Notes under the pieces: generated by a model
Told to the model about the DNA's origin: nothing
What the model saw: the letters and a program-made list of their open reading frames with translations, nothing else
Databases searched by the model: none
In this document: piece after piece, positions 1,100 through 23,156 of the stretch
Layout: every line of letters begins with the position of its first letter
Numbering within the stretch: position 1 is the stretch's first letter
Position numbers and translations under genes: made by a program
Source of the DNA: Bacteroidota bacterium
Lineage (GTDB): Bacteria; Bacteroidota; Bacteroidia; Chitinophagales; Chitinophagaceae
DNA: 64,000 nt
Direction of reading: 5' to 3'
Assembly (NCBI GenBank): GCA_020161435.1
Contig: JAIUNV010000002.1
Coordinates: 310,001 to 374,000 of the forward strand

Positions 1100-1328
1100 C
1101 TGCAATAAAGGTTAGTACCCGAAAACTGCCGGAAACATACAGCTTGGGTGTGTAAGTGCTTGGTTTAAGTGTATGTGTAAAGGTAACGGCATCATGTAAA
1201 TAAATCATGAATAAGCGATTGTTTTTCAGTATATCTACCCAAAGCAAAAGACCTTTTGCCTTCCATCAAAACCAAACACGCTGCGTATAGGTTTACTGAA
1301 TATTTTTACGCCCTATACCCTCCTAGCC

Positions 1329-4150: not shown

Positions 4151-4855
4151 TTAACGCAAGCCTTTAATTACGTCATCCAACGGAACGAGGATGTATTTTT
4201 CAATTTCGATACGGGCAATTTCACGGTTGCGTTGGGTATTGATTTTCTTCGTCATTTCCTCGTTGTACTTTTTCAATGCATCATTGTACGCATCTTCAGT
4301 AGCAGCACCGTTTTCAAAGTCGCTTTCTACTTTTAAAAAGTTGAGGTATTCGGCAGAAGTCGATTTGGTTTGTACATCCAACAGTGCTGAATACATCAAA
4401 AAATCTTCATAGTTTTTCAGGATGATGGCCTTGATTTCGCCATAGGTTTTTGAACGTTCCGCATGTGCAATGGCTACATTTTGCTCGGCCACCCGAATGT
4501 CTTTTGCCCGTGTAAACATCACACCCAGCGGCAATTGCAAACCGATATTGTACCGCGGAAAAAGGTTGGCCTGATTTTGTGTTGGCTGACTTCCTTTGAT
4601 AGAAAATTCATTGAGGTTACCCGTCACAATCAGCTGGTTCATGATGGTGCGTTTGGAACGCTGCAATTGTTGCTGTGCGATGATTTCATTGCGGTCGGCA
4701 ATTTCCATATCGGGGCCGGGCAGTGCCAGTTCTATCAATCGCTGACGGATGTCTTTGATAGTAGAATCAGGTCTCATTTGGGGTGATTGTGCAACAGCCG
4801 CTACACTGCTCAGCAACAATGCAATCATCAGGCAGCTATACTTTCCGGGTTTCAT
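4151..4855 (-). CDS. Secreted TolC-like (outer membrane efflux family) half protein
   Basis: A 234-residue protein with an N-terminal signal peptide (hydrophobic core LMIALLLSSVAAVAQ). The rest is mainly helical and charged, with a short beta-type stretch (YNIGLQLPLGV) and long helices rich in E, K and A. The order of helices, a strand such as IGLQLPLGV and then long coiled helices resembles one half of a TolC/OEP protomer, which normally has about 400-480 residues. Only one repeat is present, so it is probably not a classical trimeric efflux duct. It lies between the O-antigen ligase and an acyltransferase, so a role in polymer export or periplasmic organisation is possible. The function is not known to me. 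Confidence 0.55.
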   Translation of the reverse strand: MKPGKYSCLMIALLLSSVAAVAQSPQMRPDSTIKDIRQRLIELALPGPDMEIADRNEIIAQQQLQRSKRTIMNQLIVTGNLNEFSIKGSQPTQNQANLFPRYNIGLQLPLGVMFTRAKDIRVAEQNVAIAHAERSKTYGEIKAIILKNYEDFLMYSALLDVQTKSTSAEYLNFLKVESDFENGAATEDAYNDALKKYNEEMTKKINTQRNREIARIEIEKYILVPLDDVIKGLR

Positions 4856-6471: not shown

Positions 6472-7671
6472 TTAAATTCCTGCTTTTTGCATCGCATTAA
6501 ACATAGCAGCAATGGAAGCAGCCCATGTATGCGACAAAGCAAAGGCTTTTCGATTTGCTTGCATGGCGGCATCACCCGGCTGTTGTAAATATGCGTTGAT
6601 TGCCGCTGCAAAATCTTCTTGGCTTTCCGCTGTTTTTACATAGGGTTCAAACATTTCCATAGCTACAGTTTTGGTGGCTACAATATCTTTTCCCAATGCC
6701 AGATACTCATCTATTTTTCTGGGATAATTGCCAATAGTGAGTTCATTAAGCACCTGTGGATTGATACACACATCAAAATGCTGTATATAGGCATACAAGG
6801 ATGCAGCAGGCTTAGTACCCAAGAAATGCACGTTCGGCAATTGATGCAGTATGCTGTTGCGAAATGCCTCATCTTCCGGCCCCACCAATACCAACGATGC
6901 CTTTACATGTTGAGCTACATGCTCCAGCAATTCTATCCCCAACCTTGATTGTATCAATGCGCCTGTATAGCCAATGATTGGCTTAGCAATGCCGGCCAAA
7001 TCTTCCGGACAAGGCAATGATTCAGTCTGCAAGCCACTAAAATCACAACCCTGACCAATATCGTAGCTATGCTGATTGTTTTGCTTGCCGTAATCGGACA
7101 AATACTTTGAATTGGCTACTACACAATTGGCTTTGGCCATGAGAGCAGGTTCCAGTCTTTTACCATGCTTACTGAAATACGGCTGTGCATTCAGATAATC
7201 ACGGATATAGTAAATCGTGGCTTTCACCGGCAGCAATTCATGAAGGTATTGTCCTCGAAAAAAATCATTATCGATGAGTAAGTACGGTTGCTGAAAATGT
7301 AGCTGCTGCATTCCTTTTTCAATATCTGCAGCAAGGCGCTGGTTGTTTCGTTTATTGAACCAGTCAAACAAACCTGCATGTCCAATCCAGTTGATGGATT
7401 CAAGAATAACAGTTGGTGTCAATACAAACAGGTTGGGTTGTACTTCCTCAATCAACAGGCTTCCAGATGCACGAACTTTTTTCCGTTGAATAATCTTTGC
7501 ATCCTTTCGCTGGCGAATAGCAGAAATACGATCGAGTGCCCGGTTGATGTACAACACCGGGTACTGCTTCGACAATTCCTCCGCCATGTTTTTGAAATTG
7601 CTGCCAATTTCAATATCCCAAGGCTGCAGGCCCATCATTACAAAGCTGGTATGTTGGTTGGTTGTACTCAT
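6472..7671 (-). CDS. GT-B fold glycosyltransferase (group 1 / TuaH-like)
   Basis: A 399-residue soluble glycosyltransferase. The C-terminal half has the nucleotide-sugar binding pattern of GT-B enzymes: IIGYTGALI, then LVLVGPEDEAF, and KIDEYLALGKDIVATKT where a conserved acidic residue binds the sugar donor. The N-terminal half carries DIEIGSNFKNMAEELS and NDFFRGQY. The ATG at 7671 overlaps the stop of the flippase gene in an ATGA arrangement, which suggests translational coupling. A TTG three codons upstream is a poorer start. It probably adds one sugar to the lipid-linked repeat unit at the cytoplasmic face. Donor and linkage are unknown. Confidence 0.8.
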   Translation of the reverse strand: MSTTNQHTSFVMMGLQPWDIEIGSNFKNMAEELSKQYPVLYINRALDRISAIRQRKDAKIIQRKKVRASGSLLIEEVQPNLFVLTPTVILESINWIGHAGLFDWFNKRNNQRLAADIEKGMQQLHFQQPYLLIDNDFFRGQYLHELLPVKATIYYIRDYLNAQPYFSKHGKRLEPALMAKANCVVANSKYLSDYGKQNNQHSYDIGQGCDFSGLQTESLPCPEDLAGIAKPIIGYTGALIQSRLGIELLEHVAQHVKASLVLVGPEDEAFRNSILHQLPNVHFLGTKPAASLYAYIQHFDVCINPQVLNELTIGNYPRKIDEYLALGKDIVATKTVAMEMFEPYVKTAESQEDFAAAINAYLQQPGDAAMQANRKAFALSHTWAASIAAMFNAMQKAGI

Positions 7672-9017
7672 TTTGCCCAAGCCAGTTTAGTTTTTGCAAT
7701 GCCCAACAAATATTGGTATGCATATATCATTTGCATGAATATCCGAGGTATTGATACATCAAACAAACGACGCATGATTAGCTGATTGATGATAAACACA
7801 AATGTATGAGCCGTTAGCACACCATAAGCAGCGCCTTTCAATCCAACGGAGCTGATGAACAAGTAACAGGCAATCACACTCACGGTCATCAGCACCATCA
7901 TCATGGTCATATTGATGTGTGGCTTTCCTGTTGAATCGAGCAGCGTACCAAACTGCCGCAAAAAAGGCATGAAAAAACTCACACATACACAAAGCTGCAA
8001 CAACTGCGTATAGCTGGTGTATTTTTCGCCGCCAATGAGGTATAAGAAAATTCCGGGCACTGCAATCACACACAATGCAGCAGGAATAACAATGGCCAGC
8101 CCAATGCCAACAGCACGTTCATACAAAGCACCTACTTCATTGTTTCCACCACCGGCATGCAGTGCTGCAGATTTGGGGAACAACACATCGGCCAATACCT
8201 GCGAAGGAATGTCGATAATATTGGTAAGCCTGGCACAAATACTTAATGGAGCAACCATCGCCGAAGAAATCAGCATAGAAGTCATGAAGTGGTCGGTGGT
8301 TCTGAACACAGAAGACGCAGCATTTGTACCCACAACATATTTACTGTAGTGTACAAACTTACTCACCCAAGCGGCATCCCAATGCCAGCGAAACCGGAAC
8401 ACACTATTGTGCTTCCACAGAATAAATATTGCCGATGCAAAGATGCCGGCGTTGTATGCCCAAACCAGTGCAGAGCCCGACATATCTAACCATCCGAAAG
8501 CCAGTAAAACAACGATGCTCAACGCCACTACCTGACGGATGAACAATGCATGAAATACCGGTTTGAAATTGGGATATACAGCCATGCGCCATTCAAAATA
8601 GGTGCTTACTCCTATGAGTATATTTCCGGGAATAAACCACAGCAACATTTCATTGAGGCCGGCTGCATGCAGCGGGGCTTCGATATTGAATAATGCCAGC
8701 AGCACCAATGCCACACTGGAGAGGCTTGTGATAAAAACATTGAGCCACATGGCGGCTGAATAAACGGCATCTTTTTCATCGGCTTTTGCTACATGGTAAA
8801 AGCGAATAAGGGCATTACGCACCATGCTTTGCCTGATGATTTCTATAATAGAACTGATGAGTAAAAATTGCGCCCATGTACCCAAAGAAGATTCGGTGAG
8901 TACTCTGGTAAGAATAACCGTACTGGCAATACCGAACACCAATGTACTGGCCTTAATGAGGGCGCTGTACAATCCTGCTTTGAGTGTAGAGCTGGCGGTA
9001 TGTGTATTGCTTGCCAT
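7668..9017 (-). CDS. Wzx-type oligosaccharide flippase (MATE/MVF superfamily)
   Basis: A 449-residue protein with 12 or so hydrophobic helices spread along its length and few soluble loops. The N-terminal helix contains TLVFGIASTVILTRVLTES, a segment common at the start of polysaccharide transporters of the Wzx/RfbX type. It would move undecaprenyl-diphosphate-linked repeat units across the inner membrane, for polymerisation by the O-antigen ligase-like protein encoded downstream. It starts 3 bp after the stop of the upstream acyltransferase and ends overlapping the next glycosyltransferase start, so it is firmly inside the operon. Confidence 0.85.
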   Translation of the reverse strand: MASNTHTASSTLKAGLYSALIKASTLVFGIASTVILTRVLTESSLGTWAQFLLISSIIEIIRQSMVRNALIRFYHVAKADEKDAVYSAAMWLNVFITSLSSVALVLLALFNIEAPLHAAGLNEMLLWFIPGNILIGVSTYFEWRMAVYPNFKPVFHALFIRQVVALSIVVLLAFGWLDMSGSALVWAYNAGIFASAIFILWKHNSVFRFRWHWDAAWVSKFVHYSKYVVGTNAASSVFRTTDHFMTSMLISSAMVAPLSICARLTNIIDIPSQVLADVLFPKSAALHAGGGNNEVGALYERAVGIGLAIVIPAALCVIAVPGIFLYLIGGEKYTSYTQLLQLCVCVSFFMPFLRQFGTLLDSTGKPHINMTMMMVLMTVSVIACYLFISSVGLKGAAYGVLTAHTFVFIINQLIMRRLFDVSIPRIFMQMIYAYQYLLGIAKTKLAWAK

Positions 9018-9020
9018 GAA

Positions 9021-10109
9021 TTATTGTGTCACCAATGTTGGAGCAGGTTTCTTTTCAAAGGACCATTGAAAAATCCATTGCCAGTTTTTCTTTTGTGCAA
9101 TGCTGGCCACCAACATGGGTATGAGCATGCCCAAAGCAATGCATATGAACAATAACACTGGCACGTAAGTATAGCCGATGAATTTACTGAAAACGGTGCG
9201 CACCAGCGATGCTACCAGCACATGCATTACATAAATCTGCAGGCTATACCTGCCAATGGCTGCGAAAATTTTGCCGACAGCTGTACCATTGAGTTGCATA
9301 CTTAGCATGAGCATAAACAGGCCGCCAATCTCTGCAATGAAGAAATACAATGCCGGTTGGTAATACTCAATATGGTTGGCGCTACCATGACTATTATTAA
9401 TCATCAAAAATTGATAATTAGCATATAGAAATAACGGCAGCAACAGCAATAATACCCAAGTCTTCTTTACCCATACTTCTACTGCAGGCCTAAAAATGTA
9501 TTGAGCAATCCAGCTACCCAAGGCCATAAAAATGTAGTAGTGTAAAATATCATACACAAATCCGGTTTCGATATGATACACCGTAATGGCACCAGAAGCA
9601 GCGTACAAAATAATACCCAACAATACATGTTGCCATGCTTGTAATTTGAACCAATGCGACAGCAACGCAAACAGCATTGATACATTGAACAAAGCATACA
9701 AATACCAAAACTGATCGATACGACGGGGCCTGACAATCAAATCGAAATAACTAATCCAATTACGGTCTGCATTGGTGTATTTCGACATGATGAATTGCAA
9801 TGTGATTTGCAAACAACCCCAGAGCAAAAAAGGATAGAGTATGGTACCTGTCTTATTCAACGCAAACCAACCAAAGCCTCTTTTAGCTAAGCTGGAGGCT
9901 ACAAAAATACCCGAGATCATAAAAAACAAAGGCATGCGAAAACTGAAGAACATAATGTTGGCATCTTCAAGCATGGGAAATGATTCGGTACCAAGATTTG
10001 CTCTCGACAGTCCCTCAAACACATGCCGGTATACCACCAGAATAATGGCAACACCTTTTGCAACATCTATCCACCCGTAGCGGTTCGTTTTTTGTTGAAG
10101 CGACTGCAT
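9021..10109 (-). CDS. Acyltransferase family membrane protein (second copy type)
   Basis: A 362-residue polytopic protein beginning GWIDVAKGVAIILVVYRHV, the Acyl_transf_3 signature with the arginine-histidine pair in helix 1. Roughly ten hydrophobic helices follow, with FRMPLFFMISGIF as the second conserved block. The family transfers acetyl, succinyl or similar groups to sugars. It is clearly different from the 389-residue acyltransferase at the end of the operon, so the polymer may carry two kinds of acyl substituent. It starts 5 bp after the Wzc-like gene stop and ends 3 bp before the flippase start. Confidence 0.82.
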   Translation of the reverse strand: MQSLQQKTNRYGWIDVAKGVAIILVVYRHVFEGLSRANLGTESFPMLEDANIMFFSFRMPLFFMISGIFVASSLAKRGFGWFALNKTGTILYPFLLWGCLQITLQFIMSKYTNADRNWISYFDLIVRPRRIDQFWYLYALFNVSMLFALLSHWFKLQAWQHVLLGIILYAASGAITVYHIETGFVYDILHYYIFMALGSWIAQYIFRPAVEVWVKKTWVLLLLLPLFLYANYQFLMINNSHGSANHIEYYQPALYFFIAEIGGLFMLMLSMQLNGTAVGKIFAAIGRYSLQIYVMHVLVASLVRTVFSKFIGYTYVPVLLFICIALGMLIPMLVASIAQKKNWQWIFQWSFEKKPAPTLVTQ

Positions 10110-10114
10110 GCGGC

Positions 10115-12283
10115 TTACATTTCTAACACGTCCATTTCCACTTTATTCAATACAGCGCCCAGGTAGTTTTTGCCATACTGCTGCACTCGCTGCATACTTT
10201 CAATAGCAGCAATATTCAACACATTGTTTGCTGCATGAATCGTTGCCACAGCTTCAGAGCTGGCAAGTACTTCCAGTCCGTCTACATGATATTTCAACGC
10301 AGCCACTTCAATCAATACGCAATCAAAATCTGGGTTTGATTTAGCAACTTCCAAAATCTGAGCAATGGTATCAGCAAGGCCGACGGGTGTTGCGGCGGAA
10401 GCTGCTATACCTAGTATGGATATACCTGGTACAGCAGAGTCTGTTATATGTTTTTTCAATGTAGCAGTAGAAACTGTAGTACCCAGTAATGGAGACAATC
10501 CATCAGTACCACTCAATTGTTCTGTAAGTGATGCAGAAACATAGTTGCCGTCAATCACCAATACTTTCTTACCTGCCTGCGCCATGCTTTTTGCAAGGGC
10601 AACGATTGCAACGGTTTTACCCTCCCCTCTTTCATAACTGGCCATTACAAGCGAATGCACTTTTTGCGATTGCAATTCAATACGCAACTGTTGTATGCCG
10701 TTAATGAACAATACTTTTTCAGTAGCTTTTTTCTCATTCACCGGCTCATCGAGCAATGCCATTAAGGATTGCTTTTTTAAGGGTATCAAACTCAAATTTA
10801 CCAGTGGCTTAAAACCAGCCACTTTTGCAAATTGAGATGGCGATTTGATCGAGTTATCAAAAAATGCGGACAATAGAATAATGAAGCTGATTAGGAAGAA
10901 CGTTACGATACCAGCCAAACCTGTTGTCAAAATGGTACGAGAAGATTCAGGTTTCAACGCAGGCTGCCCCATCAGTGTCTGACGGAAGTTCAATCCTCCA
11001 TCCTGCTTGTACCCTTGTACTGCCTCAAAGCGTTGTTTGAGATCGGCAAATTCTTTCGATGCAATATCAGCCTTGGCCTGTTCACGGGATACATCCACAT
11101 CTTTACCTGCTAATGAAGAAGCCTGAGCCTGATACTTGCGTATCATGCTTTCATATTCTGCAATATTTCCTTTTGCGGATGCAATGTCTGCCTCAAGTTC
11201 ATATTTGCGTTGCTGAAGTGTTTTACGCAAATCTTCATCCGGTCTTTCCACGTTATTACTTCTGCCTTTTTCAATCAGGTCTTGTTGCAGTTTTTTAATC
11301 CGTTGCAACAATGCCTGGTCATTGCCGCCTTTCGCATTGTTCTCTGCCTCGAGTGTACTTATTTGCTTACGAATTGCAACAATTTCGCTGTTGTTTCCAC
11401 CACCACTCACCGGCGGCGGCATTCTTTGCAGCTGTCCTGTTACCGATTGCAACTGCGCCATATTCCGGTTGTAGTTTCCTTTCTCATCAGCCAGTTTGGT
11501 TTCATAATCTTGCACTATACTCAATGCCGCCGAAACCGCTGCAGAAATATCTGCGGTACCCAAGCCAACTTTTGTAGATTGTAGTTTACTGAAAGTACTG
11601 TCGAACTCCTTAGCCTTTTGTTGCAGCTGCCGGTTGATTGATTCCATAGATTCGTTGGAGCGTACATTGGACAACGAATTGTAAAATCGCATAAATTCAG
11701 GACCAATGGCATTTACCACTGTAGCAGATAAAATCGGATTTTCTGACCGGTAAATGATATCAATATAATCGGTACGGGCCAATCGGTTGATGCTCAGTGT
11801 GCTCACGAAGCTTTCATAATCGTACCCATATATTTCGAGCATTTCAATCAGCTTATTTTCATCTGCATTGGCAGTTGAAAGCAAGCGAACGGAGTCAATT
11901 TTATTTTTCAGAATCTGAACGGCCTTTTCTTTGGCTATACCAAGGGCACCTACTTCTGCCTTCTCTTTTTCCGTCAAAACTTTAAATGGTTTGTCGGCAG
12001 TAAGGTCATGTTGCAGAATACGGTAAGTCATCATCCCAATTACATTGGGCGATTTAAAGGTTTCCAACACGTTGTTGAATTTTACGTCTATTTCAAAAAC
12101 GTTGAAGTCTTCCTGCAAAGCTTTCGATTGCATGGTAAGACCAGTAGAATATTGAGCACTAGAGAGATAGCTTTTCTTTTTTAAGAAGGCGTAAGAAAAA
12201 CCAATTGCGGCTGCAAGTATGGTGAGTAAGAGTACCAGCCACTTTCTTTTAGCAAGTGCCTGATAAAAAAAGATCAAATCCAT
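10115..12283 (-). CDS. Wzc/GumC-like polysaccharide co-polymerase with degenerate kinase domain
   Basis: The start chosen is the ATG at 12283 (MDLIFFYQALAKRKW), giving 722 residues; 22 upstream in-frame codons have no membrane-protein sense. TM1 lies at about residues 15-35, a long helical coiled-coil region follows, and TM2 is near 454-478. The cytoplasmic domain has a Walker A motif ERGEGKT (about 550) as in bacterial tyrosine autokinases. The usual Walker A' 'DxDxR' is replaced by VLVIDGNYV, and the C-terminus (YLGAVLNKVEMDVLEM) has no tyrosine cluster. It should therefore control chain length and export, but kinase activity and autophosphorylation are doubtful. It heads a tightly packed group of EPS genes. 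Confidence 0.85.
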   Translation of the reverse strand: MDLIFFYQALAKRKWLVLLLTILAAAIGFSYAFLKKKSYLSSAQYSTGLTMQSKALQEDFNVFEIDVKFNNVLETFKSPNVIGMMTYRILQHDLTADKPFKVLTEKEKAEVGALGIAKEKAVQILKNKIDSVRLLSTANADENKLIEMLEIYGYDYESFVSTLSINRLARTDYIDIIYRSENPILSATVVNAIGPEFMRFYNSLSNVRSNESMESINRQLQQKAKEFDSTFSKLQSTKVGLGTADISAAVSAALSIVQDYETKLADEKGNYNRNMAQLQSVTGQLQRMPPPVSGGGNNSEIVAIRKQISTLEAENNAKGGNDQALLQRIKKLQQDLIEKGRSNNVERPDEDLRKTLQQRKYELEADIASAKGNIAEYESMIRKYQAQASSLAGKDVDVSREQAKADIASKEFADLKQRFEAVQGYKQDGGLNFRQTLMGQPALKPESSRTILTTGLAGIVTFFLISFIILLSAFFDNSIKSPSQFAKVAGFKPLVNLSLIPLKKQSLMALLDEPVNEKKATEKVLFINGIQQLRIELQSQKVHSLVMASYERGEGKTVAIVALAKSMAQAGKKVLVIDGNYVSASLTEQLSGTDGLSPLLGTTVSTATLKKHITDSAVPGISILGIAASAATPVGLADTIAQILEVAKSNPDFDCVLIEVAALKYHVDGLEVLASSEAVATIHAANNVLNIAAIESMQRVQQYGKNYLGAVLNKVEMDVLEM

Positions 12284-12363
12284 GGTGGTTGGAATTTGGG
12301 TATCGGTGGTTAAGTAGAGGTATATACAGGCGGCTAAGCCACCCTTCACAGTGCATGCAATGT

Positions 12364-12555: not shown

Positions 12556-15500
12556 TTATTCTATCTTCAATAACTTAATTGACTTGGTCACTTTGCCATC
12601 AACAATTACCCGTGCCATGTACATGCCTGGCTTGAGGCCCAAGCCTGAAACATTCATATTTACGGTATTGCCGGCAGCCATATTTGCTTTGCGGTCAGCT
12701 ATTACCATGCCGTTGGCATTGAGGAGCTGAATCTGATAGCCCTTCGCTTTTTCCAAACCAGACAGCTTGAAAGTAATTTCATTGCGGAACGGATTCGGAT
12801 AAGCAGCTACGGTTGTATTTGTAGCAACTTCAGGAGCATTCACATTCACCTTGCGGGCCTCAGTAGCGGTTTCCACTTTACCAGGTTTCTGCTGGGCCAC
12901 AGGCGGCACCATCATTACTGGCTTAGCAGGTGCTGCGGGTGCAGCTGCTGCAGAGTAACCCTGAATGATTAATCCACTCAGGAAGCCAAACTGTGCCAGG
13001 CTGTTTGTAGAAACCTCGAGATAAATTTCTCCATCGTTGGTAGGAGTAATTTCATCGATATACTCAGCACGTGAAGTGTTCTTAGAAGCATTGAGGAACC
13101 TGACACGACCATTTACGGTGTAGCTTGTAGTGAGGTTATAGTTCCAGTCGGCACTGGCGAAGAAGCCAAGGCGATACTTGAGTGACTGGTTCAAACCATC
13201 AATACGGATGAGTACTTTCTGGCCATTATCAATCCAGTAGCTACTAATCAATACTGGGTCTGGGAAAATGCCGCTGTTATTACCCGTATTCATACCAGCC
13301 CAGAATTCACCGTTGAAACTTGACACCAGATTTACGGCTACACCAGAAATGTTACCCAAATCATTGTTGAGGTTTTCATAGCGATCACCTACTTGTGGTA
13401 TCACCCTTGTATTGTTCCAAGGAGCCGGAGCAGGATACTGGTTGGTAAGGTGCAGGTAAACAATATTGCTTGGTGTAATTACTGAAGCAGCATTGCTAAA
13501 CTCTGTACCACCACCACTTACGGTAGCCCTAACTACATAGAAGTAACGAGTACTTGCAGATGCAGTGTTGTCGGTATACTTGGTGGTGTTAGCAGGCAAT
13601 GTAGCAATAAGTGCATAAGAACCGCCAGCTGTTGCTCTCCAAAGTTCATACCCTGTTTCGTTATTAGCTCTGTCTGACCAATGGAGCGATACAGAAGTAC
13701 GGGTTTCCGGAGTTGCCTTCAACGCTACAGGAGCCAATGTACCAACAGTTCCATCGTAAGATTCAATCACCAGACCATTCAGATAGCTGTATAAAGCTGT
13801 GCTGTTTTTGGTAATGGTCACAAATATTTCACCGTTTGCATCAGGTACTAAACCATTCAGGCGGGTGGTAGTATCGTTGTTGTAACGAGCCTGCATTTGA
13901 ACTGATTGTGTACCACTTGTGATGGTTGCAGATGCATCGAAACCAGCATTTACACTACCCAAGAAGGCGATATTGTACAACTTGCCAGGGGTAAGACCAG
14001 AGAACTTCACCTGCTTGCTATTGGTACTGCTTTCGTAAATAGCACTGCGGATTACTTCATCTCCAAAGGCACCGGAGTTTTCGGTAGTGATATGACCCAG
14101 ATCTGTTGTGCCAGTCCATTGTTGAACCAGAGAGAAATCGACTGTAGTCAAAGCGCCATTTTCATCACGCATGTTCTGGATGTTTTTGTTACCCATTGGA
14201 TAACCCAACAAATTGTTCCATGGTGTTGCTGCAGGCATATTATCACTTCCAAAGTTGAGGAAGATGGCTGTTGTATTCTTATCAGATACACTGATTGAAA
14301 CTGTTCTTGTTACACTTGCACCTTTATCATCAGCTACAGTTATAACGATGCCGTTATAAACACCGATATTGTCTACTGTTGGTGTAGCAGCAATGTGGTA
14401 AGAACCACCGCCGTTGTTTACCAATGTAGCAAACGCTGGCAGGTTGCTGGCCGTTACTGTCAATACATCTTCAGCATCATCAACGGCTGTAAATGGCAAG
14501 GTAGCAAGAGCATCAGTTTTTACATACAAGGTACCACCGCCGGTAATGACAGGCAGTTTATTACCAGTTGTTACTGATACAGTTGGCGTGTATGCAGAAC
14601 TACCGTTACTACCTACAGAACGAATCTGATAATAATACGTAGTGCTGCTGCTAACTGTCAAATCATCGTACGAAGTGGTATTCAAATTGGCCGCACCAGG
14701 ATTGAGCAATACAAAGTTTGCATTCGGCTCCAATGAACGGTAAATCTCATACCCTGTTTCGTTGTAAGCTACATCTCTCCAAGTAAGCTTTACACCACCT
14801 GCAGGCAACAATGCTGCTGCAAAACCCTTAGGCATTGCTGGTGCAGAACCGTCATCAAATGCTGATTCAATTTCAAGAGCATTGATGTATCCAGCCGGTG
14901 TACCAGCAGCTTTGCCCATGCTAAAGGTTACAATACCTGAAGCATCTGGCTGCACATTATCAATAGAAACTTTGTTCTGGTTATTGTTCTGTACATATTG
15001 GCTCACCGTTTGGCTACCAATAGTAAATGTAGTGGTACCATTATCAGGAGTACCAGTCCACTTACTACCTGCATAGAAACTGAACTTGTATTTCTTGGCT
15101 GGGTTCAAACCAGTTGTACGAACATTTATGGTATTTGGTGCACCAAAAATGCCGAAGTAATAGTAATCTCTGATTACTGCATCGGGATACAGCCCACTGT
15201 TATTGCCAGTTACCGGTCCTTGATCGAAGGTATTCCAGGCAGTAGTTTGGAAAGAAAGACCAACTGTTGTAGAAGCACCGGTAGTGTTTTTAAGCGCATT
15301 GGTATTTAAACCAATCACATTGTTCCATGGACTTGGTGCTACAGAAGCTTTTTGAATACTTACCAAAATGCGTTCGTTTGGAACAACCTCAGTTACTGTA
15401 AAAGATACGGGTTTTGTATCGATAGCACCGTTTGCATCGGCAACCTGTACAGTGAAGTTGTAGGTGTCACCATCAGCGTAGCCGGGTGCAACATTCAACT

Positions 15501-18500
15501 GAGCCGTACCATTACCATTATCTGTAAGAGTTACAAATGAAGGCAAACCTGTAGCTGAAATGATGAGACCAGTTTGACCATCAAGGTCAGTTGCTGAAAT
15601 GTTGAAACTACCAACTGAACCTTCCGCTACAGAACTTACTACTACAGGGTTCAATGTAGGCGGATTGTTTGCATCTACCAAAAGGGTAAAACTTCCGGTA
15701 CTTACTCCGCCATAGTTATCAGTAACTGCGTACTCAATAGTATAAGTACCCATATCACCAATTTGTGGTGATAATGAAATGCCTGCACTACCGTTGCCAT
15801 TATCTGTAATAGTTGCAAATGATGGAAGGTTTACGCCTGTTATGGTTAAGGCATCACTGTTCGGGTCTGTTGCGCTGATACTAATATTTCTTATCGTACC
15901 AAACTTCATGGTAGTATTGGCAATTGCTGTAATTACTGGTACATCATTTCCAGTTTTCGCAGAATCCTCATTACTATCACCTGCATTTCCACCTACGCCG
16001 GTTGCAACAACCTTATAGTAGTAAATAGCATTCGAAAACAGAGACGCATCGTTAAACGTAATGGTACTTCCTGTACCTGCAGCACCTGCTACAGCAGCAA
16101 TTTTGCGGTAAGTAGTATTGTTAGACAATGAACGATAAACGTCATAGCCAGTTTCATTGGTGCCATTATCAGTCCAGGTTACATCTACAGTATTACTTCC
16201 TGTAGCAGTAGCCAGCAAGTTGGTAGCAGCAGCAGGTACGGCAGGAAGAATCTGTGTAATTACATCTGAAGACTGATAGCCGTCATTCATAAGCTGTGCA
16301 ATTTCTGCGGCACTCAGGTTCGCATCAATTACCCGGAGGTCATCCATGCGGCCGCGATAGTAAGCAGAAGCATTTGCACGGAAAGCATTTCCGCTATTGT
16401 GATAACCAAGACGAGAGTTATTGGTAGTAGCAGCCACTGAGCTAAACGATAGATTAGTATTTTCAGCGGCAAGTACACCATTAACGTACATACGCAGTGT
16501 GTTACCTGCATATACCATAGCTACGTGAGACCAAGCATTGGCAGCAGTGAAGCTTGTAGAAACGGACACAGAAGTATTCGCATTAACCACAGCAGCTTGC
16601 AACTGATTAGCATTGATACGCATAGCTACACCGTTATCCGAACCACCAAAATCAAACAGCAAACGGGTACCTGTAAGCAATTCCGGACGAATCCAGAGGC
16701 TTACTGTTCTTGCATTGAAAGCTGACTTCAAGAAGTTATTAGGTCCGCTAACTTCTACCAAATCATTTGTTCCATCAAACAATATTGAATGCGTACCCTC
16801 CTGGGCAGTTGTGTTGTAAGCAGCACCATTTGTAAGTGTAATCGTATTCGCCCCCCCAGTAGCATCGGCATTGTTATTGTTCATTCTCCAACGTGCTTCT
16901 GCATAGCTAAATGCAAATGCAGATTCGCCATACTGACCAATAGCTCTTACTTTATAGAAGTAACGGGTATTGGCTGACAAACCAATAGAGTCGGTGAAAG
17001 TGGTAGTATTAGCTCCAATGGTACCAACAGTAATAAACTGGCCAGTTTTAGAAGTGCTTCTAACCACTTCGAAACCAGTTTCATTATTACTCATATCCAT
17101 CCAGTTTACCTGAACTCTATTGTGAGCCAAAGCATTTGCTCTTACACTTGCAGGGGCAATCGGAGCAACGCCAGCAAAAGGAACAGATTCATCGAATGCA
17201 GTACTTGGAATTTGCTGCCTTGCAATACCAGCAGCTGTACTTTGCCACCATACCTGCATTGATTGTCCACCACTACCCTGGAAGTAACTTATTGCAATGG
17301 GATGTAACCCTGCTGTAAGAGTGATAGTACCTGTGCGACACTGGTTGCCGTGGGCACCATCGTTATTAACTAATGCCGTGGCTGTATGGCTATATGTGCC
17401 AATATAGAGTTTGCTACCATCATCGGAGCAAGTTTCAAAAGTGTAACTACCAGCAACTGGCACTTTAATGGTACCCTCCCAAAGGAAGGCATAGTTGTTT
17501 GTCTGATTTCTCAGGGTAATATCTACGTTAGCTGACCTGCCAGTTTGCACTGGTGTAAGTGTTGCAAAATTGGGAAGTACAGTCCAGGTGCCATTGTACA
17601 ATTTGTATGATAAACCTGATGCTGCGGCCTGACCCGTAATTTGGCTACTCAAAGGAGACAGGTTGCCAGCTGCATCTCGTGCCCGAACCTGGAAGTTGTA
17701 GGTCTGGAAACCATTCAGATTGGGTACTGTAAAGTAGTTTGAGCTGGTTGTGTAAGATTTCAGTCCGTCAACAAAGATGTCGTACTTGTCTACACCTACA
17801 TCATCAGTAGATTCATTCCACTGAAGTGAGATAGAGTTTTGATTTGATGTAGTGATTACTAAGTTCTGAGGTGCATTGGGTGCACTGTCGTCCACCTGTG
17901 TTTTGCCTGTAGCTTCTGCACTATTTGCAGATGCACCATTTGCATTTACAGCACGAACGATATAATAGTAGTTGGTATTTGGATTCAAGCCCTGATCGAG
18001 GAAAGAAACCTGATCAGCAGCAGTTTTGCCAATCAGTGTGTATGGTCCCCCGGCAGTTGTACTTCTGTACACTTCAAATCCGGTTTCATTATTTACCGGT
18101 GTTGGATTATCGCTCCAATCTACCTGCATGGTTGTTTTAGAAGCTCCAAGTGCTAATAGGCCGCCTGCAGCATCAGGCAATCCGGAAACACCGTTTGCAT
18201 TTACTACAGTATAATCTGCTGAATACTCTGAAGAACAACCGTACAATTCTGTTACCCTCAACCTGTAAGTTCCTGCAGGAGCTTCAAATACTTTTGCAGT
18301 TGATACAATAGCATTATCAGACACCCTACGCCATTCGTAACCAGTATAATCTCCGGCTACAGAAAGTGGTACAGTTGTTTTACCATCAGATGCAGGCAGC
18401 ACATTGCTAAACATGCCTTGAATTTGAATTGGCGGGGTAAGTGTAGTTGGCTTAATACGCACGACTACAGGAGTAGGCGACCATGCAGACCAGTTGCCAG

Positions 18501-19533
18501 TTGCAGTGCGCCTAAACCTTGCACGATAAGTGCCATAAGTGGTTACTACCAATTTATTGGTAGTAGCACCAGGTATTACCACACCATCTTTCTCCCATTC
18601 ATAAGCAGCAAATCCTGCTGTCAATCCAAGTGTAGTATTAACAGGATCTCCGGGGCAAAATTCGCTTCTTCCAAAATATACAATAGGGTTTGCTTTGTGA
18701 ATGTTATTCATGAAAGGAACCCAGGCAGACTCTGCCCATGCGGTATTCCAACACCCGTGACCTTGGGTTGGATAACGGGTATGCACAATACTACCTCCCC
18801 TGTTTTTAAAAGAGTCAACCAATGCCACAGCCGTACCAGGTGCAGGGTTATTATCCTTATCACCTGTATACAATCGAATAGGAATTTCGAGGTACTTAGG
18901 GATACCAGGAATATAACCTAACGATGCACCACTAATAGGCTGAGCACCAGCAAATACTTTAGGGTACTCTTCAATAAACTTCCAGGCACCCTGGCCTCCA
19001 ATAGAAAGTCCATGAACCATTACGCGGTCCACATCCACTTTCACATACTTAGCCATTGAATCAACAATCTTGGCCAAGGTGGCAAAATGCGAAGAACCCC
19101 AGCCAGAGTTGTTAGCTCCAAACTGTGGGTAAATCAAAAAGCCATCGTAAGTGCCATTATTTACACGGTCTCTAAAAGTCTGACCACCATGGAGCAGCTG
19201 ATATTCGTTATCAAATGCAGAACCACGTTCGCCCAAGCCATGCAAAAAAACTGTTGCAGGATAAACCTTACCATCAGATACATTGTGCTGATAGGTTTTG
19301 GGGAACATAACCCGGAACTGAACACCCTGGAAGATGTAGCTCTTAAACTGAGATGCATCCCAGTTTACACGAGGAGTACGAACCCATTTTGTAATTCTAC
19401 TCAACGTGGGATTGGGAGGTGGACTTGCGGCATTGTAATTTACAATAGGGTCATTGGGATCAAATACACCAGCCTGACCAAATGTAACCGTGCAAGAAGC
19501 AAGGATTGTGAGGAAGAGGATTAAGCGTTTCAC
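12556..19533 (-). CDS. Giant multidomain T9SS-secreted esterase/adhesin (2325 aa)
   Basis: The protein starts at a GTG (MKRLILFLTILASC..FGQ, a signal peptide). Residues about 70-280 form an alpha/beta hydrolase: FLHGLGERGSAF, nucleophile Ser177 in GLSIGG, probable Asp225 in TGDKD and His259 in QGHG. It is likely a secreted esterase or depolymerase. Then come two Ig-like domains (282-447), FN3 domains (about 451-540 and 550-635), PA14 (638-781), FN3 (795-880), LamG (881-1089), FN3 (1098-1181) and two cadherin-like domains (1196-1379). Next are three copies of an unassigned module of about 170 residues (1386-1557, 1753-1925, 2021-2192), alternating with FN3 and cadherin-like domains. A Pro/Ala linker and a T9SS sorting domain (YPNPFRNEITFKL...) end it. 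Its place among EPS genes suggests that it binds or trims the polymer on the cell surface. Confidence 0.85.
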   Translation of the reverse strand: MKRLILFLTILASCTVTFGQAGVFDPNDPIVNYNAASPPPNPTLSRITKWVRTPRVNWDASQFKSYIFQGVQFRVMFPKTYQHNVSDGKVYPATVFLHGLGERGSAFDNEYQLLHGGQTFRDRVNNGTYDGFLIYPQFGANNSGWGSSHFATLAKIVDSMAKYVKVDVDRVMVHGLSIGGQGAWKFIEEYPKVFAGAQPISGASLGYIPGIPKYLEIPIRLYTGDKDNNPAPGTAVALVDSFKNRGGSIVHTRYPTQGHGCWNTAWAESAWVPFMNNIHKANPIVYFGRSEFCPGDPVNTTLGLTAGFAAYEWEKDGVVIPGATTNKLVVTTYGTYRARFRRTATGNWSAWSPTPVVVRIKPTTLTPPIQIQGMFSNVLPASDGKTTVPLSVAGDYTGYEWRRVSDNAIVSTAKVFEAPAGTYRLRVTELYGCSSEYSADYTVVNANGVSGLPDAAGGLLALGASKTTMQVDWSDNPTPVNNETGFEVYRSTTAGGPYTLIGKTAADQVSFLDQGLNPNTNYYYIVRAVNANGASANSAEATGKTQVDDSAPNAPQNLVITTSNQNSISLQWNESTDDVGVDKYDIFVDGLKSYTTSSNYFTVPNLNGFQTYNFQVRARDAAGNLSPLSSQITGQAAASGLSYKLYNGTWTVLPNFATLTPVQTGRSANVDITLRNQTNNYAFLWEGTIKVPVAGSYTFETCSDDGSKLYIGTYSHTATALVNNDGAHGNQCRTGTITLTAGLHPIAISYFQGSGGQSMQVWWQSTAAGIARQQIPSTAFDESVPFAGVAPIAPASVRANALAHNRVQVNWMDMSNNETGFEVVRSTSKTGQFITVGTIGANTTTFTDSIGLSANTRYFYKVRAIGQYGESAFAFSYAEARWRMNNNNADATGGANTITLTNGAAYNTTAQEGTHSILFDGTNDLVEVSGPNNFLKSAFNARTVSLWIRPELLTGTRLLFDFGGSDNGVAMRINANQLQAAVVNANTSVSVSTSFTAANAWSHVAMVYAGNTLRMYVNGVLAAENTNLSFSSVAATTNNSRLGYHNSGNAFRANASAYYRGRMDDLRVIDANLSAAEIAQLMNDGYQSSDVITQILPAVPAAATNLLATATGSNTVDVTWTDNGTNETGYDVYRSLSNNTTYRKIAAVAGAAGTGSTITFNDASLFSNAIYYYKVVATGVGGNAGDSNEDSAKTGNDVPVITAIANTTMKFGTIRNISISATDPNSDALTITGVNLPSFATITDNGNGSAGISLSPQIGDMGTYTIEYAVTDNYGGVSTGSFTLLVDANNPPTLNPVVVSSVAEGSVGSFNISATDLDGQTGLIISATGLPSFVTLTDNGNGTAQLNVAPGYADGDTYNFTVQVADANGAIDTKPVSFTVTEVVPNERILVSIQKASVAPSPWNNVIGLNTNALKNTTGASTTVGLSFQTTAWNTFDQGPVTGNNSGLYPDAVIRDYYYFGIFGAPNTINVRTTGLNPAKKYKFSFYAGSKWTGTPDNGTTTFTIGSQTVSQYVQNNNQNKVSIDNVQPDASGIVTFSMGKAAGTPAGYINALEIESAFDDGSAPAMPKGFAAALLPAGGVKLTWRDVAYNETGYEIYRSLEPNANFVLLNPGAANLNTTSYDDLTVSSSTTYYYQIRSVGSNGSSAYTPTVSVTTGNKLPVITGGGTLYVKTDALATLPFTAVDDAEDVLTVTASNLPAFATLVNNGGGSYHIAATPTVDNIGVYNGIVITVADDKGASVTRTVSISVSDKNTTAIFLNFGSDNMPAATPWNNLLGYPMGNKNIQNMRDENGALTTVDFSLVQQWTGTTDLGHITTENSGAFGDEVIRSAIYESSTNSKQVKFSGLTPGKLYNIAFLGSVNAGFDASATITSGTQSVQMQARYNNDTTTRLNGLVPDANGEIFVTITKNSTALYSYLNGLVIESYDGTVGTLAPVALKATPETRTSVSLHWSDRANNETGYELWRATAGGSYALIATLPANTTKYTDNTASASTRYFYVVRATVSGGGTEFSNAASVITPSNIVYLHLTNQYPAPAPWNNTRVIPQVGDRYENLNNDLGNISGVAVNLVSSFNGEFWAGMNTGNNSGIFPDPVLISSYWIDNGQKVLIRIDGLNQSLKYRLGFFASADWNYNLTTSYTVNGRVRFLNASKNTSRAEYIDEITPTNDGEIYLEVSTNSLAQFGFLSGLIIQGYSAAAAPAAPAKPVMMVPPVAQQKPGKVETATEARKVNVNAPEVATNTTVAAYPNPFRNEITFKLSGLEKAKGYQIQLLNANGMVIADRKANMAAGNTVNMNVSGLGLKPGMYMARVIVDGKVTKSIKLLKIE

Positions 19534-19604: not shown

Positions 19605-20792
19605 TTACACATTTGCATCTTGAAACATCGCTGAAGGGGTTTTGGCCATGATGCGTAAGTCGTAGAAAAAACCGAAATTTCTGGAATATTCAATATCAAG
19701 ATCTACACGTTCATTCACAGACATATTTGCTTTTCCACGCTTGCTGATCTGCCATAAACCTGTAATACCAGCAGGGGCCAAAAATCTTTCAGCCCATTCA
19801 TTGCAAGTAAGCGTAGCGGCTTCATAGAGCGGCAAGGGACGATTACCAACCAAAGACATATCTCCCTTCAATACGTTCAATAATTGAGGCAGTTCATCTA
19901 AACTGGTTTTACGCAAAAAACAACCCAATCGGGTAACTCTGGGGTCGTTGTCAATTTTAAAAAATTTGGGGCCTTCACAATTGTCTGCATCACCAGCATA
20001 CTGATTGAGCTTTGCATACTCATCCAGTTTCTGATCTGCGTCTACCACCATGGTTCTGAACTTGTAAAAATTGAACACATCAAATCCACGACCAGCCCTT
20101 TTCGAAATGTAAAAAATCGGGCCCCGTGATTCGCAAAAAATGCATAATGCAATCAAAAGCATTAAGGGCATAAGAACCAACAGGGCAACAGAAGAAACAA
20201 CAATATCTAAAGCTCTTTTAAGCACCAAATCAACATCAAGCTTGTTTTGCGATTTGTGCAATTCTGCAACAGGCGCAGCAGGAACACGCAAGCCAGCTTT
20301 CATCTCCTTCATGCTGCGCAAAATTTCTGCACCAGCCATTAAAGTTTGCGCATTTTCATTTTGACTAATGACATCATCAAACAAACGGCACTTTACCATC
20401 TCGTACAGTTCATCCTTGGTAAACACACCTTCGCCTACGTAGTGATAAACGAAGGGAATTTTGCGCAGTTCCTTTGTTGCTTCCAGAAAAGCATAAAACT
20501 GGCGGAGCTCTGCAAAACGTATCCGGCCCTCATACACGATGATCTTCGGGAGTTTTACACCGGCATGTACCATCTCCAAAAGCATGTTTTTCGATTCTGA
20601 AAGAGAGTGCATCACTTTCGATTCCGGAACTATACTCCAATCATCAGAATGAAGTAAGTAACCAGGTAAGCTAATGATGAGTGCATCTAACCCACGAACT
20701 GTTTCAGAAACATGAAATGACCGATTGCCAATTGCTTTGAATTGTACCACTGGTGATACCAGCAAATTGGAATGAATGTTGTGTGTAATCAT
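19605..20792 (-). CDS. Initiating sugar transferase (WcaJ/WbaP-type) with receiver-like N-terminus
   Basis: The chosen start is the ATG at 20792 (395 residues); a GTG 17 codons upstream is possible but preceded by no better signal. The C-terminal half is a bacterial sugar transferase: a hydrophobic helix (DIVVSSVALLVLMPLMLLIA), the KFRTM motif, and DELPQLLNVLKGDMSLVGNR. It transfers a sugar-1-phosphate to undecaprenyl phosphate and starts repeat-unit synthesis. Most relatives carry extra membrane spans or none; here residues 1-170 are soluble. They resemble a response-regulator receiver fold (LDALIISLPG, then KIPFVYHY, then LFDDVIS) without a clear phospho-acceptor. It lies 128 bp after a stand-alone receiver protein, so regulation by signalling is plausible. 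Confidence 0.85.
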   Translation of the reverse strand: MITHNIHSNLLVSPVVQFKAIGNRSFHVSETVRGLDALIISLPGYLLHSDDWSIVPESKVMHSLSESKNMLLEMVHAGVKLPKIIVYEGRIRFAELRQFYAFLEATKELRKIPFVYHYVGEGVFTKDELYEMVKCRLFDDVISQNENAQTLMAGAEILRSMKEMKAGLRVPAAPVAELHKSQNKLDVDLVLKRALDIVVSSVALLVLMPLMLLIALCIFCESRGPIFYISKRAGRGFDVFNFYKFRTMVVDADQKLDEYAKLNQYAGDADNCEGPKFFKIDNDPRVTRLGCFLRKTSLDELPQLLNVLKGDMSLVGNRPLPLYEAATLTCNEWAERFLAPAGITGLWQISKRGKANMSVNERVDLDIEYSRNFGFFYDLRIMAKTPSAMFQDANV

Positions 20793-20920
20793 ACGTTTAG
20801 GGTTTGTTGGAGAAAGAAGAGGGTATTGATGAGTCGTTTGCACACTGAGCTTTTTTTTACTGAAGCGCAGTGCAGGTGTGTTAAGTCTTAGAGATGTTTA
20901 TGTCAAGGATTCATTTGTTT

Positions 20921-21286
20921 TTAACTAGCCAGCAAATTCACAATGCAACCACGCAACTTTACCGGATCAAATGGTTTTTCCATGTACATGCTGATGGTTT
21001 CTTTCGGCACAAATGATTCGATATTACCAGCATCTTTTGTAAGTACTACTATCGGAATATGCTTAAATACAATACTGTTTTTGATGTACTGCATAAATTG
21101 ATAGTCTTTAGAGTTTGTCGCCTCAGAAGGATCTATGATGATGACATCGGGTTTACCAACTTCTGAAATTTGATACAATGCGGTAGCACTGTCTGGTACG
21201 GTTACTACATCATAATCTTTCTTAAAAAGATTGTACAACAAAAGCCGGATTGGCTTCGAATTGTCGATGAAGAGAATTTTTTTCAT
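20921..21286 (-). CDS. Stand-alone response regulator receiver domain
   Basis: A 121-residue protein consisting of one receiver domain. It begins MKKILFIDNSKPIR, where the acidic pair is reduced to Asp-Asn. The phospho-acceptor candidate is the Asp of VIIIDPSEA, followed by the conserved Thr of IVVLTKDAG and the Lys of YMEKPFDP. The normal 'PxxDG' turn after the phospho-acceptor is missing. No output domain is present, so it would act by protein-protein contact in the manner of CheY or Spo0F. It sits between a membrane GT2 and the initiating sugar transferase, so its partner may be the transferase or the polymer machinery. No histidine kinase gene is in the window. Confidence 0.85.
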   Translation of the reverse strand: MKKILFIDNSKPIRLLLYNLFKKDYDVVTVPDSATALYQISEVGKPDVIIIDPSEATNSKDYQFMQYIKNSIVFKHIPIVVLTKDAGNIESFVPKETISMYMEKPFDPVKLRGCIVNLLAS

Positions 21287-21309: not shown

Positions 21310-22506
21310 TTAAGCGGAGAGTTTAGTTCGGGCAGATCGTTCCCAAACAGCTGACTGATTATTCTGCAAAAACTTTTTCAATCCGAAATAAACAGCCACG
21401 TTCATAAACAAGAAATAGTAGGGTACGTTTAGTATTCTATAACTGATATTCAATCGATTGAAAATCCCACCGGCAATGGCTAAAGAATAAAAAGCCACTT
21501 GAGCAATTAATAACAATTGGATAGGTAATGATGGGCTTAATAAAACAAGTAACAAATTACTCAGCAATATAACCGGCAACAAAAAAGGACACAATGCCCA
21601 ACGCAAAACCCTGTGAGAAACATATTGAAAACTGAGCATTCCAAAACGCAATGGATTCATAAGTGAAGCAAAAATTTGCATGGCTTGAAAACCGCCAGCT
21701 GCTATTCTGATTTTTCGCTTCTCTTCTTCCTTTACATTTTGCGAAGGCAATTCCTCTCCGTAAGCAGTAGGTTCGTACTTTACCAAATACCCACGTTCAC
21801 ATACGCCCAACGAAATATAGAAATCATCCAAAATAATGTTGTTGCCTACAGCCTCGTAAAGGCTTTTCCGCACTGAAAAAAGCTCACCAGCAGCACCCAC
21901 TACAGTGTGCAAATCAGAGTCGAGCTTTTTCAAGAATGATTCATACTTCCAATACAAACCTTCTTCAGCCACAGCACCAACACCAATGGCGGAAACAATA
22001 CGTTTTTCGCCACTCACACCGCCCACTTTAGGATTGGAGTAATGTTTGGCAATGTTCGCAACTGCATCTTTGTTGAGCATCGTATTCGCATCACTAAAAA
22101 TCAAAATTTCATTTGATGCATGGGCTACAGCACGATTCAATGCAGCTGTTTTACCCATTCTTGCTGGCTGATGCATGAGCTTGACCCGAGGTTCGAAACC
22201 CGAAACAATTGCAGGTGTAGCGTCATCAGAACCATCAGTAATTACTATGATTTCTAATTGTTCAGCTGGATATTGTTGCGATAGCGAATTTTCGATTTTG
22301 GCCTGAATGCAATCAGCCTCGTTGTAAGCTGCAATAATCAATGAAACGCTTGGCTGGAAAGGCTTTTCAGATAACTTATTGGCCTCAGTTTTGCCAAAAA
22401 ATTGCTTTGCCCTTACGAGTAGGTATGTAATAACACCGTAACCGAAGTAGGTGTATATCACAATAGCCAGGCTAGACCAAAGAAGTATGTGAAGAAGTGT
22501 GTTCAT
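21310..22506 (-). CDS. Membrane-bound GT2 glycosyltransferase
   Basis: A 398-residue protein with an N-terminal membrane helix and about three C-terminal hydrophobic helices (from about residue 290). The catalytic domain carries SVSLIIAAYNEADCI, IIVITDGSDDAT and IFSDANTML, the A-type acidic motifs of GT2, plus ILDDFYISLGVCERG. It resembles processive EPS synthases but has KRKIR where those have QxxRW, so it may add a single sugar. ATG 22506 is chosen because the ten codons upstream look non-coding and contain the ACCCTTAAAC motif. It is the first gene of the minus-strand EPS arm, next to the 650-bp control region. Confidence 0.8.
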   Translation of the reverse strand: MNTLLHILLWSSLAIVIYTYFGYGVITYLLVRAKQFFGKTEANKLSEKPFQPSVSLIIAAYNEADCIQAKIENSLSQQYPAEQLEIIVITDGSDDATPAIVSGFEPRVKLMHQPARMGKTAALNRAVAHASNEILIFSDANTMLNKDAVANIAKHYSNPKVGGVSGEKRIVSAIGVGAVAEEGLYWKYESFLKKLDSDLHTVVGAAGELFSVRKSLYEAVGNNIILDDFYISLGVCERGYLVKYEPTAYGEELPSQNVKEEEKRKIRIAAGGFQAMQIFASLMNPLRFGMLSFQYVSHRVLRWALCPFLLPVILLSNLLLVLLSPSLPIQLLLIAQVAFYSLAIAGGIFNRLNISYRILNVPYYFLFMNVAVYFGLKKFLQNNQSAVWERSARTKLSA

Positions 22507-23156
22507 GCGTTTAAGGGTTGCTTGCGTGGGCCACACCAGGGAAACTATTACCAGTCAGCTCATCAGCAGTAGAAGTGACAACAATAGTCACATCCACTTA
22601 CGGATGGATGGCAACGTTGGAAACCAGCATTGTGATGTCATGAGTTAAGGGTAGACAACACAATAATTTAACTTGAGTTTTAACTACAAGTAATACTGGA
22701 TAAAAAGGTAATAGAAAACCGGGTTTGGGAGAATTTTGTTGTTTAAGGGTGTTGGTTTAGGTTTTTTCTTTCGTTTAGGGGGTTTGTGATAAACATAGAA
22801 GTTTAACCACAGTTCGAAAGTACATGCAATTTGATAAAAAGCAAATTTTTTTTTGGGTTTCTCTACCAAAGTGGCAAATGAGTATACGAACCAGTCGAAA
22901 TTCATTTTACGTAGCCTTTCATTCCATATTGATAACTAGGATTTTATATAAAAACTGAATGCATCATTTATTTTTTCTACTATTTTAGCGTGCCGACTTT
23001 GTTTTACCCTTAAACCCCTTTTTACAAGTCCGTACAGGACAACCTTTGCATTTTTCTATCATAATGCATCAAAATAATTGTTCAACCTTTAATTATTGTT
23101 AGCTTCGATTTCATACCCAATAGCCGGAAACGCTTATTCATTTATCCTATCTGCTT
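22507..23156. promoter_or_regulatory. Divergent EPS control region without genes
   Basis: This stretch separates the two divergently transcribed EPS arms. It is AT-rich, with a poly-T run near 22850, and contains no convincing gene. The word ACCCTTAA(AC) occurs repeatedly: on the minus strand at 22509-22518, 22645-22652 and 22741-22750, and on the plus strand at 23006-23015. A variant (ACCCTAAAC) sits at 20795-20803 directly before the sugar transferase start. The first copy lies immediately before the GT2 start codon. The repeats may be regulator sites or a leader element. No exact promoter could be fixed. Confidence 0.5.

Follow-up and report, generated by a model that had tools for sequence, protein, structure and literature searches.

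A giant esterase with a T9SS sorting domain in a Chitinophagaceae EPS locus: a candidate O-deacylase of the cell's own polymer

Why would a gene cluster for making EPS encode an esterase of 2325 residues, and whose ester bonds would such an enzyme cut? The question arises from a 64,000-nucleotide stretch of DNA from a member of the Chitinophagaceae (the window). A preliminary description of it proposed a surface protein that both binds and de-esterifies the polymer, perhaps removing acyl groups added by two acyltransferases. As a whole, that interpretation is partly supported. We put the probability at roughly 0.6 that the protein is an EPS O-deacylase exported through the T9SS and able to bind the polymer as well, a reading in which activity, substrate, binding and location are all predictions.

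The giant esterase gene was said to lie between the Wzc-like and initiating transferase genes and to run in their direction. It does, with all three on the minus strand; the preliminary description gave no strand for the gene, and its coordinates and length are exact. The locus reads as follows:

2965..4134, minus strand: acyltransferase-3 (a)
4151..4855, minus strand: outer membrane efflux-type protein (OEP), 234 aa
4894..6354, minus strand: Wzy_C polymerase/ligase
6472..7680, minus strand: group 1 glycosyltransferase
7668..9017, minus strand: Wzx-like flippase
9021..10109, minus strand: acyltransferase-3 (b), next after wzc in most relatives
10115..12349, minus strand: Wzc-like polysaccharide co-polymerase/tyrosine kinase
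12556..19533, minus strand: giant T9SS esterase gene, 2325 aa, GTG start
19605..20843, minus strand: initiating sugar-phosphate transferase
20921..21286, minus strand: response-regulator-like protein, assigned by eye, conserved beside the initiating transferase
21310..22536, minus strand: GT2 glycosyltransferase, in relatives often adjoining the esterase

Gaps of 206 bp and 71 bp separate the giant esterase gene from the Wzc-like and the initiating transferase genes, respectively. Downstream come both acyltransferase-3 genes, Wzx, Wzy_C and OEP, and the annotated neighbours are EPS genes. The OEP-family outer membrane protein has only 234 residues, is not an obvious Wza, and is kept in relatives. 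In the open-access literature we found no account of such an EPS/esterase operon in Chitinophagaceae, nor of the giant esterase protein family, an absence that is weak evidence.

Could so long a reading frame be an accident? Homologues of about 1,800-2,800 aa match it end to end in many Chitinophagaceae and dN/dS over the whole gene is about 0.07, which places the ORF far from chance. Consensus identity among 37 homologues stays at about 0.5-0.6 over most of the length; the variable parts are the LamG domain (occupancy 0.69) and the region preceding the tail. The architecture is conserved and no loose mosaic, and end-to-end conservation rules out a chance or mosaic ORF. Tandem DNA repeats were looked for and none was found, and nothing speaks for any of the plus-strand ORFs within the gene. 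A search for related loci returned a single near-identical contig.

The second question is whether the protein is an enzyme. The relevant features are these:

18679..19446, minus strand: alpha/beta-hydrolase (EstA-like) domain, residues 30-285
19003..19005, minus strand: Ser177, nucleophile in GLSxGG, invariant in 61 of 61 homologous domains
18853..18855, minus strand: Asp227, catalytic acid, invariant in 61 of 61 and aligned to an Asp of EstA
18757..18759, minus strand: His259 in an HxxW motif, invariant in 61 of 61

Pfam gives the hydrolase domain a weak Peptidase_S9 match; its match to EstA (PDB 3doh) reaches 2.7e-14 with one sequence and 2.4e-27 with a profile of the family. The solved structures nearest to it are annotated as esterases. 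Of the triad first suggested, Ser177, Asp225 and His259, the serine and histidine stand, but residue 225 is Asp in only 3 of the 61 domains and must give way to Asp227. G101-E102 and W262 are likewise invariant, among homologues that are mostly about 40% identical. In the esterase domain dN/dS falls below the whole-gene average, at 0.036 against L035 and 0.026 against L138. Because the triad is invariant and purifying selection is strong, the domain is very probably an active enzyme, as judged from its sequence. An AlphaFold2 model of the domain, made from two near-identical rows (the window and L035), had a pLDDT of 36, too low for interpretation. The giant esterase missed two NCBIfam cut-offs for PHB/PHA depolymerase (37.4 bits where 150 is required, and 27.2 where 107.85 is).

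Most of the protein lies beyond the hydrolase domain, in a chain of modules:

17632..17874, minus strand: best FN3 module, residues 554-634, with more FN3 modules elsewhere in the protein
17236..17505, minus strand: PA14 domain, residues 677-766, in 19 of 20 homologues
16297..16776, minus strand: LamG-3 domain, residues 920-1079, optional (8 of 20 homologues)
15676..15948, minus strand: cadherin-like/Big_9 module, residues 1196-1286
14848..15378, minus strand: PWNN repeat 1, residues 1386-1562
13747..14274, minus strand: PWNN repeat 2, residues 1754-1929, modelled as a malectin/CBM-like beta-sandwich
12946..13470, minus strand: PWNN repeat 3, residues 2022-2196

Pfam bears out the Ig-like, FN3, PA14, LamG and cadherin-like modules and the T9SS tail that had been assigned alongside the hydrolase: it reports fn3 in four stretches, PA14, Laminin_G_3, Cadherin_5/Big_9 and Por_Secre_tail. 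The three PWNN repeats, of about 176 aa each, are an addition to the preliminary description, and no convincing match to them was found by sequence in Pfam or PDB. One repeat was modelled with a pLDDT of 74 as a malectin/galactose-binding-like beta-sandwich (moderate confidence). The best VIA Z scores of this model were 10.6 for the C-terminal domain of Bacteroides uniformis beta-glucuronidase 2, 9.6 for CBM61 and 8.6 for human malectin. Among 39 relatives, strong PWNN matches are confined to giant esterases, with weak ones (1e-12 to 1e-16) in other large ORFs. A carbohydrate-binding role for the beta-sandwich modules, and with it the word 'adhesin', is only a guess, since it rests on one fold model of moderate confidence. 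In genome G039, a 347-aa ORF adjoining wzc (L127:11059-12102) matches only the C-terminal PWNN and tail; it is a possible remnant of a giant esterase.

Where would the enzyme act? Two features at the ends of the protein bear on its location:

19477..19533, minus strand: Sec-type signal peptide, residues 1-19, assigned by eye
12565..12801, minus strand: T9SS type A sorting domain, residues 2245-2323 (TIGR04183, 31.5 bits, cut-off 23)

The N-terminus is Sec-like (VKRLILFLTILASCTVTFGQ), and the family consensus begins MMK...AQ. At the other end, PF18962 (Por_Secre_tail) scores 30.8 against a cut-off of 27, and 17 of 20 homologues carry a T9SS tail. The genome encodes SprA, the one T9SS part covered by the search (2355.7 bits, cut-off 200). 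From these signals, the cell surface or the matrix is the most likely location of the protein.

Does the giant esterase belong to EPS production, or is it there for something else? We labelled simple ORFs with home-made models in 195 Chitinophagaceae genomes, where several loci end at contig edges. Esterase matches below 1e-20 occur in 51 genomes, mostly in ORFs of 1,800-2,800 aa. Wzc comprises a high-scoring subtype, present in 44 genomes, and other types. The preliminary description had offered co-occurrence with EPS genes as a point on which it might fail; the count supports it, since 41 of the 44 Wzc-subtype genomes encode the esterase (G076, with a homologue cut by a contig end, included). 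Both genes are present in 41 genomes, only one in 11 and neither in 143, and eight genomes have the esterase without the Wzc subtype (Fisher 2e-30, uncorrected for phylogeny). At the level of genera, the sole phylogenetic collapse, the esterase is found in 26 of 26 Wzc-subtype genera. Gene order agrees: wzc lies directly downstream of 33 esterase genes on the same strand, typically after 20-400 bp. In some other genomes the two genes are 12-20 kb apart and point in opposite directions, and acyltransferase-3 genes occur in that region too. Giant esterase genes form tandem pairs in G021, G006 and G107 (L037 + L038; L040 + L041; L051).

Several genomes also carry extra esterase copies at a distance from EPS genes, and the family as a whole is thus not confined to EPS loci. 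Such copies speak for an enzyme that is primarily a scavenger, de-esterifying plant or fungal polysaccharide from the environment and sitting in the EPS locus by chance or for co-regulation; feruloyl and acetylxylan esterases among the weak PDB relatives point the same way. Against this, the wzc-adjacent position is conserved, with acyltransferase-3, in 33 genomes at about 40% protein identity, and the presence or absence of the esterase follows the Wzc subtype. For the copy in the window, that conserved position disfavours a stand-alone food-polymer enzyme, the outcome that the preliminary description regarded as fatal to it. We consider the scavenger the least probable of the readings weighed here.

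The partners of the esterase suggest what it might remove. Acyltransferase-3 is encoded within the stretch fetched in 32 of the 33 wzc-adjacent esterase loci (weakly in L046); the remaining locus, L124, is cut by a contig end. In G030, where the esterase is linked to wzc over a longer gap, no acyltransferase-3 was found within its 17.7 kb contig. Esterases outside wzc loci, without this Wzc, can still be flanked by acyltransferase-3, as at L058, L071 and L132. Among loci with other types of Wzc, the home-made models found acyltransferase-3 in 1 of 26, as a weak match at the locus edge. These models overlook divergent acyltransferases of this family (Pfam alone picked up two in family f8), and the control loci were therefore rechecked with Pfam. 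Acyltransferase-3 was not among the 25 commonest families in their 102 unlabelled ORFs, which leaves room for about two cases at most; the listing includes two MBOAT acyltransferases. One genus, g36, varies in this respect. G035 has both esterase and acyltransferase-3, and G127 and G194 have GT2-Wzc-Wzy-OEP with neither, according to the models and to Pfam on the larger unlabelled neighbours; the two absences are probably one event. Since relatives keep the giant esterase in the same place beside acyltransferases, the enzyme probably trims the cell's own slime, not food. The acyl group could, however, be placed on a lipid or an intermediate instead of the polymer.

The association with acyltransferases fits equally well with a different chemistry. 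Serine esterases of EstA-like fold can transfer acyl groups. The protein might then be a transacylase, or form an ester link, that fastens itself or other T9SS cargo to acylated EPS, and its role would be matrix anchoring, not trimming. A long protein with many binding-like modules, conserved from end to end, would suit an anchor. No transferase-specific sequence feature was found, however, and the closest solved relatives bear the annotation of esterases. We judge anchoring to be improbable.

The association of the esterase with a second protein is new here. Two further genes of the window are involved:

206..1105, minus strand: UbiA family, decaprenyl-phosphate phosphoribosyltransferase-like (NF008978, 220 bits, cut-off 207)
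1329..2984, plus strand: 551-aa hydrophobic membrane protein, with a phylogenetic profile nearly that of the esterase

The esterase also tracks the 551-aa protein, which has no match in Pfam, NCBIfam or PDB. The two share 45 of the 195 genomes, with exceptions of 2 and 4 (Fisher 6e-37, uncorrected for phylogeny), and in many genomes their genes lie apart. In ten loci that we read, the 551-aa protein is encoded beside UbiA, DprE-like genes and HAD. Seven of the ten include an esterase-like ORF: six of these ORFs measure 633-654 aa and one 2,260 aa. At L148, L149, L150, L152, L153 and L156 the cassette stands apart from the EPS locus and holds the conserved ORF of about 633-654 aa, together with large unlabelled ORFs of about 700-800 and 1220-1245 aa. 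The window's genome has the DprE-like cassette and the EPS locus joined. Across positions 206-1105 and 1329-2984 of the window and L140:2-12106, just left of the window, UbiA, DprE1-like, DprE2-like and HAD genes form a cassette with the 551-aa protein. Two more esterase-like large proteins, of 1092 and 1493 aa, are encoded next to it, just off the window.

The cassette resembles the mycobacterial decaprenyl-phosphoryl-arabinose pathway, an assignment that is tentative because both DprE1 (452 against 500) and DprE2 (196 against 250) score below their NCBIfam cut-offs. It suggests a decaprenyl-phosphoryl-pentofuranose input to the polymer. We found no description of a DprE1-type pathway in Bacteroidota EPS in the open-access literature, where absence is weak evidence.

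Might the esterase then serve this cassette? It might act on a different acylated glycan of the envelope, for instance a glycolipid that contains arabinofuranose, or on the sugar that anchors T9SS cargo, and the EPS locus would be shared because the precursors are shared. The tight co-occurrence with the 551-aa protein favours such a target, as do the UbiA, DprE1 and DprE2-like genes and smaller esterase-like ORFs beside that protein. Yet in most genomes the giant esterase is coupled to wzc/wzy and not to that cassette, and four esterase-positive genomes lack the 551-aa protein. This reading is unlikely, if slightly less so than anchoring.

Giant esterases of this kind also occur outside the Chitinophagaceae. 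We surveyed about 395 genomes of the phylum and 395 of the class; there, families other than the Chitinophagaceae mostly have stand-alone esterases of 240-300 aa. Family f8 is an exception: G373, G240 and G334 encode ORFs of 2,300-2,570 aa with the esterase domain, and giant esterases in f8 are found in polysaccharide loci, adjoining acyltransferase-3. The G373 locus has two giant esterases with an initiating transferase and glycosyltransferases, and acyltransferase-3 after the esterases. Between its two giant esterase genes lies one for a PorP/SprF-type T9SS membrane protein (L141:8559-9926). One of the two giant esterases, a 2549-aa f8 T9SS protein (L141:10228-17877), combines EstA-like and GDSL lipase domains with PKD, FN3 and PA14. 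G334 brings together giant esterases, acyltransferase-3, the DprE1/DprE2/UbiA/HAD set, the 551-aa protein, OEP, Wzy and Wzx. It is conceivable, though we would sooner bet against it, that the Chitinophagaceae share an EPS system with one or more other families of the Bacteroidia. In such a system a mycobacteria-like decaprenyl-phosphoryl-pentofuranose donor of the DprE1/DprE2 type and the 551-aa protein, as an undescribed membrane transferase, would yield an arabinofuranose-containing, O-acylated exopolymer, which giant T9SS esterases of a family dedicated to this task would remodel outside the cell.

How would the O-deacylase that we favour work? Acyltransferase-3 enzymes would put O-acyl groups on the polymer or its repeat unit, and the esterase would leave through Sec and T9SS for the cell surface or matrix. 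There its successive PA14, LamG and malectin-like PWNN modules could hold it on the exported polysaccharide. The EstA-like domain would then hydrolyse those O-acyl esters outside the cell. Acylation within the envelope and de-acylation outside it would together determine how charged, sticky or soluble the matrix is. If this is right, a one-operon pair, acyltransferases inside and a T9SS esterase outside, governs the acylation of a Bacteroidota exopolymer. It would offer a genetic handle on matrix stickiness and tie T9SS export to EPS chemistry. It would also give testable functions to a large protein family, an undescribed PWNN repeat and a 551-aa membrane protein family.

Several known systems resemble parts of this scheme. 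EstA of Thermotoga maritima (PDB 3doh), the best solved sequence relative, shares the alpha/beta-hydrolase core, GLSxGG and the aligned Asp; its solved chain is a 380-aa esterase, whereas in the window the domain stands at the N-terminus of a 2325-aa T9SS protein encoded in an EPS locus. T9SS type A cargo, like the giant esterase, has a C-terminal Por_Secre_tail and an N-terminal Sec signal, but the tail is a generic delivery signal and says nothing about the substrate. RbmA of Vibrio cholerae is encoded with the vps genes. It is a secreted matrix protein with two FN3 domains and no enzyme, and it binds the EPS of its own cell (PMC5605196). Likened by description and not by sequence, as another FN3-containing secreted protein, RbmA may serve as a precedent for an FN3 matrix protein that binds its own EPS. 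In Klebsiella pneumoniae, the secreted esterase KpACE strips O-acetyl groups put on the capsule by WcsU, an acyltransferase encoded in the cps locus; KpACE came to light through its upregulation, not as a fixed operon member (PMC11556721). The giant esterase differs in being embedded next to wzc, giant and T9SS-exported. Compared by role and not by homology, KpACE and WcsU would provide a working precedent for an acyltransferase-esterase pair.
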